Positions 2,383-8,213 of a DNA stretch of 44,395 nt are shown here, piece after piece. The stretch comes from a virus. The DNA is taken from positions 1-44,395 of the IMG/VR virus record IMGVR_UViG_3300046616_000606. The stretch is one strand, 5' to 3'. The notes beneath the pieces are model-generated. The model was not told the DNA's origin. It searched no databases and was given only the letters and a program-made list of their open reading frames with translations. Both the position numbers and the translations under genes were made by a program. The stretch's first letter is position 1. Each line of letters begins with the position of its first letter.

Positions 2383-2488
2383 ACCTAAAGATTCGCACAC
2401 CTGTTCGACGAGTGGTAGCGTCGGCTCCGCGGGGTCCGGAGGGTAAGGGAAGACCAGCCGGGCCTCGCAATTCTTGTTCGATAGCCGT

Positions 2489-3959: not shown

Positions 3960-4015
3960 GCGGAGTCTCGCCCCCGCCGGGAAACGTGCACCGACCTAGC
4001 CAAGTAATATCGCCG

Positions 4016-4656
4016 GTGCGCGTCGCACCCCCCCGTGACGCGCACTCGGCCCGCTCGACGAGTCCCCCCGATTTAGCTCGAGCGGGCCACCTATGGACTG
4101 TGCGCCTTTACTTTAGTCGGATTTGGGCGCACACGGCCCGCCCGGTTGTTACTGACGAGCGATCGGGCGGGCTACCGAGAACTGCGTGTCGAGACTGGGG
4201 AGCGGTACGACACGCGCGCCCACCGAGTACGGCACAAAGAAATGCTCGGTGGGCACCTCCTCGATGATCAGCAGGCTCGCCGCTCCTTCGGTAAAGTCAG
4301 AACGGCATTCGGCCTCCAACGTCGATGCACGCCTCACCCACAATGTGGTCACGCGCAGGTCGAGTGAGGCAACCAATCTGGTCCGCCCGTTCGTTGCTGA
4401 CTAGCGAACGGGCGGACCGCCTATGTTTGCAAAGCGAACGGCCGGGGCACCTCCGGTTTGGTCCGCCGGAACGAACCCCACCTGATCTCCGGCGGACCAC
4501 TGATCTGCGTGTCGAACTTTCATCGGTCCCGACACGCATGGTCCGCCGACTGGATGTTCACAGCTACCGTCGGCGGACCACCAAGACCGCGCGCCCGTCC
4601 CCGACAGTTCGAGCGCGCCGCCCACCGAGCTGCGGTCACGCTCAGCATCGGTGGGC
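4016..4656. repeat. Tandem array of about twelve non-identical inverted repeats (non-coding)
   Basis: Arms (left/right) are: 4016-4024/4037-4045; 4048-4058/4078-4088; 4099-4106/4126-4133; 4136-4144/4164-4172; 4184-4191/4208-4215; 4218-4227/4245-4254; 4331-4337/4364-4370; 4380-4393/4405-4418; 4459-4470/4488-4499; 4506-4514/4530-4538; 4539-4550/4569-4580; 4620-4628/4648-4656. A weak 6-bp pair lies at 4589-4594/4613-4618. Each pair is perfectly complementary, with loops of 11-19 bases (26 in one). Arms differ between units, yet some recur: GCGTGTCG in two units, GCCCACCGA in two, GGTCCGCC in three. The last three diverge after eight bases, with matched changes in the partner arm, so pairing itself seems selected. 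Frames crossing the array have no coding character. The role is unknown; a structured RNA, a terminator block, a protein-binding array or a replication/recombination site are all possible. Confidence 0.85.
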
Positions 4657-4671
4657 ACCTTGGCTGTACGG

Positions 4672-4695
4672 CGCGAACGGTCGGTCTGGTTTGAT
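4672..4695 (+). promoter_or_regulatory. Candidate promoter/operator of the glycosyltransferase gene
   Basis: Second copy (22 of 24 identical) of the element at 2489-2512. It ends in TTTGAT exactly six bases before the ATG at 4702, so transcription would start at or next to the start codon. It begins only 16 bases after the last hairpin arm of the array. Confidence 0.5.
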
Positions 4696-4701
4696 AGAGG
4701 C

Positions 4702-5601
4702 ATGAGCGCCCACCCTCCACGGACGATCACCCTCCTCTCCGTCGTAATTCCCACTTTCAATGCCGTCGATCTCATCGGTGAGCAACTCATGGCCCTCGAC
4801 GCCCAGAAATATGACGGCGCGTTCGAGGTCATTGTCAGCGACAACGGCTCGACGGACGGCCTACGCAGCTACATCGAGAGTCACCCTCTCAGCGAAGCGC
4901 TCCGATTGCGATGGGTCGACTCGTCATCGGTGCGCGGCGTCTCGCATGCACGCAACGTCGGGGTCGACCATGCGGCAGGCGAATTCGTCGCCTTCTGCGA
5001 TGCTGACGACCGCGTCCATCCAGGGTGGCTGCAACACATGGCGGCGGCCGCTCAAACCGCCGATGTCGTTGGCGGAGGGCTGGAGACGGCGTCGATTAAC
5101 ACTCCCCTGGTCAACAGCTGGAGAGAGTTCGTCCCCAGCGAAACTCCGCACTCCTACGGCTCATTCTTGCCGTACGCATTTGGGGCGAACTTCGGGGCAT
5201 GGAAAACCCAGTACCAATCGATTGGCGGATGTGACGAGTCCATGACCGCAGCTGGCGACGATGTCGACTTCAGTTGGCGAGCACAGATGGCGGGAATGAC
5301 TTTCGCGCACGAGCCCAAAGCTGTCGTGGCATATCGGCTCAGATCAGAAATCGCCAGTACATGGCAGCAGATGCGTAGGTACGGCAGCGCTGCGGCGATG
5401 CTGCACAAGAAGTACAAGGCACATGGGTTCAAGAAGCCTTCCGGCCGTGCGCTCCTTACCGAGATCGCGGCGCTCACCCTTCTGAATCCGGCTTTGCCGC
5501 AATCAGTCACGAAGATGCCACGTGGCAAATGGGCGACGCATGCCGGATTCTTCGCAGGCAAAGTGCAAGGCAGCATTCGAGAGAGGACGTTGTTCGTCTA
5601 G
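4702..5601 (+). CDS. Family 2 glycosyltransferase, 299 aa
   Basis: GT-A fold, GT2 family: SVVIPTFNAVDLI near the N-terminus, SDNGSTDG (residues 46-53), HARNVGVDHAAGEFVAF, then the metal/nucleotide-sugar motif D100-A-D-D103. The later GANFGAWKTQYQSIGGCDE and AGDDVDFSWRAQMAG are the acceptor-side and catalytic-base regions of this family. It should transfer a sugar from a nucleotide donor to a lipid or polysaccharide acceptor at the inner face of the membrane; the acceptor cannot be told. The ATG at 4702 is chosen because the promoter-like element ends six bases upstream. It could be a host gene beside the prophage, or a surface-modifying accessory gene that alters phage receptors. Confidence 0.85.
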   Translation: MSAHPPRTITLLSVVIPTFNAVDLIGEQLMALDAQKYDGAFEVIVSDNGSTDGLRSYIESHPLSEALRLRWVDSSSVRGVSHARNVGVDHAAGEFVAFCDADDRVHPGWLQHMAAAAQTADVVGGGLETASINTPLVNSWREFVPSETPHSYGSFLPYAFGANFGAWKTQYQSIGGCDESMTAAGDDVDFSWRAQMAGMTFAHEPKAVVAYRLRSEIASTWQQMRRYGSAAAMLHKKYKAHGFKKPSGRALLTEIAALTLLNPALPQSVTKMPRGKWATHAGFFAGKVQGSIRERTLFV

Positions 5602-5950: not shown

Positions 5951-5990
5951 CAAAAATGCCCCCCACCTCGGAAGATGGGGGGCATTTTTG
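5951..5990. terminator. Strong bidirectional terminator at the end of the late operon
   Basis: Arms 5951-5965 and 5976-5990 are perfectly complementary over 15 bases (CAAAAATGCCCCCCA), giving a G+C stem with a T-run on each strand. It lies eight bases after the last stop of the leftward late operon (5998) and also faces rightward transcription from the glycosyltransferase side. Confidence 0.9.
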
Positions 5991-5997
5991 AGCAAGG

Positions 5998-6504
5998 TCA
6001 GGCTGGTGCCTGCGCATTGAGCCACGCGAGCGCAGCGGTCTGCTCGTCTGGTGTGAGTGCTCGATTCCAGACGGCGACCGCTTTCAGCTGTGCAAGGTCT
6101 GACCGGACCGTGACATTCGCAGTCACAGGACTCTCGGTTCGTCCAGAAACACTGGCAGTGACGCCGTTCAAGCTCGCCCATGCGCCAGCAAGGGTTCGCG
6201 AAACGATCAACTGATTCCGTGCTTGGTTGACGCCGTCCTTCTCGAGGAACCACGGAAAGAAGCTCGAGCCGTTACCCGCTGCAGCTCGGGGTATGGACCA
6301 GGCTTTCTGATCAAGGAGGATCCAGTTCTCTGATCCGATGATCTGCCGATCAGCGTGTCCGGTGTTGTAGATCGCTGCGATTGTCATCGCAGACCAACCT
6401 CCGGACGGTGGAGTGACCGACAGCGACGTCGTGATATTCGGGTAGTAGCGCACCCAATCCGGCATTGCCATGGAAGATCCACCCCGGACAAATATGTGCG
6501 GCAT
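5998..6504 (-). CDS. Minor tail / receptor-binding tip protein, 168 aa
   Basis: The start is the ATG at 6504, overlapping the stop of the upstream fibre gene (ATGA). The sequence looks like a LamG/concanavalin-type beta-sandwich: GWSAMTIAAIYNTGH, SFFPWFLEKDG, and the typical ending LAQLKAVAVWNRALTPDEQTAALAWL. Such domains at the end of tail fibres bind host surface glycans. It is the last gene of the late operon, where receptor-binding modules are often found. The family call is by pattern only; the exact ligand is unknown. Confidence 0.65.
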   Translation of the reverse strand: MPHIFVRGGSSMAMPDWVRYYPNITTSLSVTPPSGGWSAMTIAAIYNTGHADRQIIGSENWILLDQKAWSIPRAAAGNGSSFFPWFLEKDGVNQARNQLIVSRTLAGAWASLNGVTASVSGRTESPVTANVTVRSDLAQLKAVAVWNRALTPDEQTAALAWLNAQAPA

Positions 6505-8213
6505 CAGGCCAGCCCCTTCAGATCTACGACGAGACCTTTGCCCGGTGTCACACCGATCGATGCGACGTACACCGTCAAGACATCGCCAGCGGCGAAGGCC
6601 CAAGTGCCCGTACTAGTGGCACCTGCCACCTGATTGGCGGCGGCAATCGTTGTCGATGTTCCGGATACCGACGCCCCGTTCTTTCGGAGCTCGACGACGA
6701 GATTTCCGGAAGTGTCGGCAGTGAGGCATCGGAACGTAGCGGAAGTAAACGTGACTGCCCGTTGCAGTTTGATGCCGAGCGCACAATCGTTGTAACCGAC
6801 TGCACGAGCCGATGTCTCGCCAGCACCAGGCAGAGTCGTGTCGTACGGGACTGTTCCTGCCGTCGGTGTGCGCGTGTCCGAAAACCTTGAGTCGTTGGAC
6901 GCAGGCGCTCCGATCGCTGTACGCGCAGCAGCAGCATCGGCGGCCTTCATGACGGTGCGGCCCACGGTCGTGGCGTCGGTGATGTCGGCGGCTACATGGG
7001 AATGACCAGTGTTCGACTTGCCGTCGAGTGCATTCTGCAGACCCGTGACATTTGCGATGTCGTGAGTGTGCGCCGTCGGAGTACGTGCATCTGACAGCCT
7101 GGCATCAGTGCCCTGAACTGCGCTGTCGGCCTTGTCAAGTGACGCCTGCACTGACCCACCAAGTTTCGGTTTGGTGACCGCGCCATCTTGGATCTTGATC
7201 GTCGAGATCGCATTGTCTGCGACCGCACCAGTAGCGATTTCGTCGGCCGCGGCTTCTGCTCGGTCCGCCTCGGCAGCCGATCGATCGGCGTGGATCGAGG
7301 ATGCGTTCGCAGACGTAGCTGAAGATGTCGCACTCAGGTTTGCCGCGCCTGCCTGCGCACTGGCAGTGCTCGCGAATCCTTCGGCCTGTGTCTTCGCGGA
7401 TAGCGTCGCATCACGAGCTGCGATCGTTGTCGCCTTGTCCGCTGCAACCGTGGTGACGCTCGCATCGACAGAGTCCTTCGCCTCGAGCGTGTCCGCGCGC
7501 GCGGTGTCGACTTGCCCCTTCGCTGTGAGTGTCGCGTCGCGTGCCGCGAACGTGTCCGCCTTGGCTTCGTCTACAGCGGTTCGAGAGGACGAGGCCGACG
7601 CCGCGTCTGCCGACGCCTGCGAGAGCGCGGGAACTGTGACCTTGGGCAGCGCAGTGCTGTCTTCGAGTCCGAACTGCAGCTGATTCCCGACGACCGCAAC
7701 GGAATTGACGGACAGGCCTCGTTCACCCCGGAACGCTGCGCCGTCGCCGTCGGCCGGCCATCCAGTCATGCCATAGATGTAGAGAAGACCATCCGCATTG
7801 ACGACGAACGCTGCACCTAGATCCCACGGCCCAGGGCCTAGATCCGCGTACGTCGGCACCGATCCGGACAGGGTGACACCGGCACCGGTGTCACCCTTCT
7901 CGCCCTTGGTGATGACCTTACGGTCGGAGATCACGATCTGCTCGAGCTCTGATAGGCGGTGGCTCCCAGAGTCAGGAATCATGAAATCGTAGGTCGCTTG
8001 CCAGTTCTGGGTTGCGATCGTGACGCGTCCAGGCCCAGGGTCGAGATCCGGGGACGTGACACGCCCCGACGCGTCGGCGTAGACCTGGATATCGGTCGGG
8101 GTGATCATGCCGTCGCCGTCGGCCTTGATGCGATACGGGACGCCGTGGAAGGTTGCGGTTACCTTGTCCGGCCGGAGCGCGAGATCCTGAAAGTCCTCGA
8201 AGATGATTGTCAC
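6504..8213 (-). CDS. Tail fibre / baseplate protein with Ala-rich coiled coil, 569 aa
   Basis: The GTG at 8213 is the likely start, four bases past the upstream stop; the frame extends further up but overlaps that gene. Order of parts: an N-terminal tail-attachment domain (IIFEDFQDLALRPDKVTATF), a collagen-like GEKGDTGAG segment, and GPGPWDLGAAFVVNADGLLYIY. A long Ala/Asp/Thr-rich heptad region follows (about residues 200-330; SADAASASSSRTAVDEAKADTFAARDATLTAKG style), then phage-tail repeats with HTHDIANVTGLQNAL and HSHVAADI. It ends in a beta-rich tip. This is a trimeric fibre architecture. It is coupled to the next gene by ATGA. Confidence 0.8.
   Translation of the reverse strand: MTIIFEDFQDLALRPDKVTATFHGVPYRIKADGDGMITPTDIQVYADASGRVTSPDLDPGPGRVTIATQNWQATYDFMIPDSGSHRLSELEQIVISDRKVITKGEKGDTGAGVTLSGSVPTYADLGPGPWDLGAAFVVNADGLLYIYGMTGWPADGDGAAFRGERGLSVNSVAVVGNQLQFGLEDSTALPKVTVPALSQASADAASASSSRTAVDEAKADTFAARDATLTAKGQVDTARADTLEAKDSVDASVTTVAADKATTIAARDATLSAKTQAEGFASTASAQAGAANLSATSSATSANASSIHADRSAAEADRAEAAADEIATGAVADNAISTIKIQDGAVTKPKLGGSVQASLDKADSAVQGTDARLSDARTPTAHTHDIANVTGLQNALDGKSNTGHSHVAADITDATTVGRTVMKAADAAAARTAIGAPASNDSRFSDTRTPTAGTVPYDTTLPGAGETSARAVGYNDCALGIKLQRAVTFTSATFRCLTADTSGNLVVELRKNGASVSGTSTTIAAANQVAGATSTGTWAFAAGDVLTVYVASIGVTPGKGLVVDLKGLA

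Follow-up and report, generated by a model that had tools for sequence, protein, structure and literature searches.

Tandem hairpin pairs in a Rhodococcus prophage belong to a repeat family shared with plasmids of the Rhodococcus erythropolis group

The array and its surroundings

The window, i.e., the whole stretch of DNA analysed, is an IMG/VR virus record of 44,395 bp; its structural genes are encoded on the minus strand, running from ~28 down to 6 kb, and an integrase lies at its right end. One of its minor tail proteins is 97% identical to the counterpart in Rhodococcus phage Sleepyhead; similarity of phage genes served to assign hosts to the IMG/VR prophages. In this Rhodococcus prophage, a non-coding array of ~650 bases (4016-4656) is flanked by short ORFs on one side and a glycosyltransferase gene on the other. 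It contains 11 local perfect inverted repeats with arms of 8-14 and loops of 11-19 bases, as well as two with shorter arms, of 7 bp at 4332-4371 and of 6 bp at 4589-4618, which agrees with the approximately twelve perfect inverted repeats counted in an earlier note on this DNA. Dinucleotide shuffles of 4013-4660 yielded a mean of only 0.44 (maximum 3) hairpins with arms of at least 8 bases, and of 0.05 with arms of at least 10, of which five were observed. The folding energy was −352 kcal/mol, compared with −268 ± 6 kcal/mol after shuffling (z ∼ −13), and perfect hairpins were much rarer across the remaining window than inside the array.

The array is composed of seven tandem dimers of ~80 nt, each consisting of hairpin X, one base, hairpin Y, and then ACC. 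The consensus of the unit is AC-[TGYGYGYC..loop..GRCRCGCA]-C-[GGCCCRCC..loop..GGYGGGCC]-ACC; folding and comparison gave TGYGYGYC/GRCRCGCA as the arms of X and GGYCCRCC/GGYGGRCC as those of Y. X and Y are two different hairpins repeated in the same direction, without inverted alternation. A covariance model (R1) made from an alignment of the second dimer with its homologues (A1; derived by blastn and nhmmer) recovered other dimers of the window, which are therefore relatives. A broader model (R2) listed all seven (starts at 4013, 4097, 4181, 4340, 4438, 4504, and 4586).

4005..4010, + strand: TAATAT, a possible −10 hexamer of the form TANNNT, six bases ahead of the first stem; suggestive only
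4013..4093, + strand: dimer 1; X 4016-4024/4037-4045, Y 4048-4058/4078-4088
4097..4178, + strand: dimer 2; X 4099-4106/4126-4133, Y 4135-4144/4164-4173
4181..4259, + strand: dimer 3; X 4184-4191/4208-4215, Y 4218-4227/4245-4254
4260..4339, + strand: insert without a dimer, in which a larger imperfect hairpin begins (GCCTCAC..GTGAGGC, 4332-4371)
4340..4423, + strand: dimer 4; X degenerate, Y 4379-4419 (18 pairs with G-T)
4438..4503, + strand: dimer 5; X weak, Y 4459-4470/4488-4499
4504..4584, + strand: dimer 6; X 4506-4514/4530-4538, Y 4539-4550/4569-4580
4586..4661, + strand: dimer 7; X 4589-4594/4613-4618, Y 4620-4628/4648-4656
4702..5601, + strand: accessory gene outside the repeat, encoding a family 2 glycosyltransferase (Pfam Glycos_transf_2)

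Dimer 2, in which the Y stem continues inwards to a 7-nt ACTGACG loop, is the unit best kept between replicons. The insert at ~4260-4339, which parts dimers 3 and 4, has a relative in NZ_CP011296 (L010) near a homologue of dimer 2. Two related phages (L157 and L158) carry one extra dimer after dimer 7. The recurrence of arm sequences noticed earlier was found again, GGTCCGCC standing at the start of three units (4380, 4460, and 4540), GCGTGTCG at 4184 and 4507, and GCCCACCGA at 4218 and 4620. The earlier remark that the loops are unlike each other is true of most pairs within the window, but not of those at 4145-4163 and 4394-4404, which are related, nor between replicons, where corresponding units keep their loops (e.g., unit 2 has ACTGACG in its hairpin Y, and unit 6 has ACTTTCATCGGT in its hairpin X).

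A TANNNT hexamer is present at the equivalent place in L157, L004, L158, L008, L035, and L009, i.e., with the window in four phages and three plasmids. A hexamer so placed in seven loci would be in keeping with transcription, though it is no proof of it, and a promoter scan detected no consensus sigma-70 promoter at the array. As separate observations, a common motif, CGGTCTGGTTYGAT.., stands a few bases upstream of the ATG in both the glycosyltransferase gene (4702) and a lipoprotein gene (start 2519) (4669-4704 versus 2486-2521; 89% identity over 27 nt), which is perhaps a common leaderless promoter for accessory genes expressed in the lysogen. A 15-bp hairpin, CAAAAATGCCCCCCA..TGGGGGGCATTTTTG (5951-5990), located where the glycosyltransferase gene and the late genes converge, looks like a two-way terminator. 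In the sister prophage L004, the glycosyltransferase gene is followed by an acyltransferase-like ORF of 451 aa (5955-7310), and in L158 and L176 an alpha/beta hydrolase occupies this slot, which may be a site where accessory genes are swapped.

Conservation of pairing and of one strand

In an alignment of 80 copies (A3; 74 of them distinct), which was partly fitted to the model and thereby favours pairing, 96.4% of the stem cells were paired, and double compensatory changes were found at 17 of the 18 pairs. Doubly changed cells numbered 238, as opposed to 65 after shuffling, and none of 500 shuffles reached the observed value; in controls where the alignment was slid, at most 50% were paired. 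In A1, pairing amounted to 97.2% with 10 pairs doubly changed, a level again not reached in any of 500 shuffles. Drift of the arms without compensation, which would have counted against the earlier claim that selection is on pairing and not on sequence, was looked for in the homologues, but their arms compensate. The claim was thus upheld across loci with shuffled and slid controls and, as far as can be judged from the aligned copies, selection is on pairing. The search for conserved coding frames returned none: the four phages differ by indels of 1, 3, and 4 nt, and because these shift the frame, a conserved reading frame is ruled out and coding sequence was rejected as an explanation.

The wobble pairs are distributed unevenly between the strands. 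Among 37 non-redundant dimers (less than 80% alike), 41 G-T and 10 A-C pairs were counted on the + strand (p = 1.5e-5). A1 contained 31 and 4, respectively, and a smaller set of orthologous arrays showed the same trend (20 versus 9). Transitions at unpaired positions were balanced (33 C/T versus 31 A/G). Because G-T exceeds A-C about fourfold on the + strand and the unpaired sites lack such a mutational bias, what is preserved is a folded single + strand, be it RNA or single-stranded DNA.

Distribution and exchange of neighbouring modules

A 1.6-kb block comprising the array and the glycosyltransferase gene is 93% identical between the window and prophage L004, and blastn retrieved pieces of 75-87% identity from unannotated DNA of Rhodococcus plasmids. 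A search for the array elsewhere, as the earlier note had suggested, was successful with the covariance models: six other prophages (L004, L052 (= L157), L051 (= L158), L176, L178, and L179) contain the unit, as do 13 plasmids of R. erythropolis, R. qingshengii, or unnamed Rhodococcus strains, either singly or in arrays. Between 1 and 12 dimers are found per plasmid, the maximum being on one megaplasmid, and scans of whole plasmids revealed more single copies, e.g., at eight separate places on NZ_CP077418. Five control replicons (R. jostii pRHL1 (1.12 Mb), R. erythropolis pREL1, Nocardia pNF1, Streptomyces SAP1, and phage Sleepyhead) gave no match to the model, nor did the viral records L173, L174, L175, and L177. 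As pREL1 is among them, the unit is missing from some plasmids even within the R. erythropolis group. Searching viral contigs for the pattern CTTTCATCGGTCCCGRC yielded 61 stretches, and of those scanned with R1 only L051 and L052 matched; another, L053, is the L004 contig, and the other stretches were read as chance. Matches to the pattern CTGGTACTGACGACCAG contained no model match, blastn against phages returned none, and searches of genome contigs by the glycosyltransferase and the minor tail protein found nothing.

The units thus constitute one repeat family which, within the replicons searched (plasmids and viral contigs), is restricted to one clade. On the plasmids of the R. erythropolis group, their placement is mostly intergenic: the array matches on the listed plasmids do not overlap annotated genes at all, and one single copy (NZ_CP077418, 443341-443419) overlaps the end of one. 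Tandem duplication is evident from L007, where a unit of two dimers is duplicated. The copies within one plasmid are old and diverse, and recent hopping was not seen.

Other conserved features were encountered in the same replicons. A second hairpin, GGGGTCGGGAGGGTAAGGGAAGACCAGCTCGGCCCC, is found in the window (2432-2466), L157 (4499-4535), L158 (6085-6121), L008 (3943-3979), and L007 (~4410-4444); it recurs beside arrays and elsewhere on plasmids, with up to 100% identity between phages. On several plasmids, single dimers of one class, whose TACTGACGA loop is conserved (L138, L140, L145, L132, and L146), lie upstream of, and antisense to, the gene for a 212-aa protein family, for which no significant Pfam family was found. 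Furthermore, a module of ~1.8 kb with two dimers ~700 nt apart (L134 2506-4271, L137 1492-3261, and L139 1785-3615) was found in two copies on NZ_CP077418 and in one on NZ_CP007257, in one copy with a helix-turn-helix gene between the dimers; it is possibly a mobile element.

In the four related prophages (window, L004, L157, and L158), the common array is bordered by two types of left flank and two types of right flank, and each of the four possible combinations occurs. The window shares its left flank with L157, and L004 shares the other type with L158; on the right, the window resembles L004 (the glycosyltransferase side), and L157 resembles L158, the glycosyltransferase gene being replaced in the latter two. 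Sites of the left type extend from 4011 to 4143 and those of the right type lie at 4488 and 4661 (one of a third type is at 4043), which indicates exchange within the array; this placement of the crossover derives mainly from the flanks, since the internal sites number only three of the left and one of the right type. In otherwise similar loci, homology is lost within ~10 nt of the 3′ end of Y in at least six cases, bearing in mind that the loci were chosen for holding a unit and that a break anywhere within a unit will appear at the unit edge because the units are alike.

Interpretation and comparison with known systems

With modest confidence, the best interpretation of the array is a tandem run of seven copies of a BIME-like repeat of the R. 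erythropolis group that is dispersed and conserved in structure, and at which flanking modules have been exchanged. Hairpin pairs between genes would have been copied to new places and multiplied in tandem, and would thus have become common to the replicons of one clade. An enzyme recognizing the folded single + strand may have spread them, and the arrays may now provide prophages and plasmids with common stretches of DNA at which they swap neighbouring gene modules. A search for a Y1 transposase (Y1_Tnp) on 15 plasmids was negative, and no mobilizing enzyme was found there. Rather improbable is the further notion that the X-Y units are folded-single-strand recognition sites of an undescribed actinobacterial copying or recombining enzyme, and as such portable joints for module exchange in the prophages and megaplasmids of one clade. 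Prophages and megaplasmids of the R. erythropolis group are connected by this repeat, whose covariation is strong and whose strand is clear; a part of it in module exchange could be tested directly on the four prophage mosaics, and a covariance model of the unit would allow others to annotate it.

The main rival to the BIME-like reading, possible although on the unlikely side, is that the array encodes a long structured non-coding RNA (or RNA sponge) of hairpin modules, transcribed from the + strand with a promoter at the left edge. Strong folding, loops and unit order kept between phages and plasmids over several units, and the TANNNT hexamer that four phages and three plasmids have directly ahead of the first stem would all fit such an RNA. 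It also explains the + strand bias of the wobbles equally well, which counts against preferring the BIME-like reading. On the other hand, single dimers occur in unrelated places, neither length nor gene neighbour is fixed, units are gained or lost between relatives, and neither a consensus promoter by scan nor an Rfam relative was found (no Rfam covariance model matched the array at the gathering threshold or E ≤ 1; a tRNA search was also negative). Large structured RNAs of phages and plasmids, of the ROOL and GOLLD type, are likewise long non-coding structures in prophages; the array differs from them by the absence of an Rfam match and by being a modular repeat of variable copy number that also exists as single copies.

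The likeness to terminator clusters, attC arrays, and telomere ends pointed out earlier proved weak when tested. That the units are terminators, insulators, or mRNA-stability hairpins is improbable: their strong stems and their position between genes, beside variable accessory genes, would suit such a function, yet a T-rich tail follows the stem in only 5 of the 37 non-redundant dimers (one weak terminator site was found in the array), the orientation to neighbouring genes is inconsistent, and conserved loops and an ACC foot are unnecessary for termination. It is very improbable that they are structure-recognized sites at which an unknown recombinase swaps modules, in the manner of integron attC. 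Both attC and the array keep the fold rather than the sequence, form arrays, and are strand-biased, and homology breaks at the 3′ edge of Y together with module exchange around the array are in line with recombination sites; however, the core pair RYYYAAC/GTTRRRY is present in only 2 of 37 dimers, the tandem units are a few bases apart with neither cassettes nor a conserved frame between them, and ordinary recombination between repeats can explain the breaks. Perfect arms can also arise by template switching at quasi-palindromes without any selection, but this explanation is disfavoured and hardly credible here, since repair should treat G-T and A-C equally, yet the former has been retained about four times more often, and loops and feet are conserved, too. 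Telomeres of linear replicons (Rhodococcus and Streptomyces) share runs of palindromes with the array but fit poorly, as the arrays are internal and not at replicon ends, the linear pREL1 and SAP1 have no model match anywhere, and the folded end of pREL1 looks different.

The earlier statement that no named element has this layout stands insofar as no Rfam family fits. It does not stand with respect to interspersed palindromic repeats (BIMEs), to which a single family of X-Y dimers dispersed on R. erythropolis-group plasmids is akin. Such repeats include the GTAG- and CGTC-tagged palindromes, of which the GTAG repeats are reported to form subfamilies with complementary stem changes and G-T pairing, the latter being taken as a hint of RNA function in a study that does not mention actinobacteria (PMC3733652); others are the RAYT-associated REPs (PMC2817692). 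None from actinobacteria is described in the REP literature consulted. In the partial open-access coverage of the literature, no description of a REP, MITE, or BIME from Rhodococcus was found, and the structured repeat family appears to be undescribed so far in actinobacteria. Unlike REP/BIME, the array is built from direct X-Y heterodimers of ~80 nt with loops of 11-19 nt, its stems diverge far more, and no RAYT was found on its replicons. No clear case of a free GTAG/CGTC tag was seen: GTAG was counted in 4 of 37 dimers, and GTAG, GTGG, or CGTC in 20 of 37, where GTGG may stem from unpaired GT plus paired GG on the bottom strand; it is no free head and sits on the strand disfavoured by the wobbles. 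On the plasmids searched, copies are few (1-12 dimers per plasmid, as opposed to ~100 or more REPs per genome). Because neighbouring hairpins do not alternate in inverted orientation, and other hallmarks are missing or unproven, the array was not classified as REP. What it has in common with REP/BIME are short, GC-rich hairpins dispersed between genes, their organization in dimers and tandem clusters, and compensated stems with G-T pairs.
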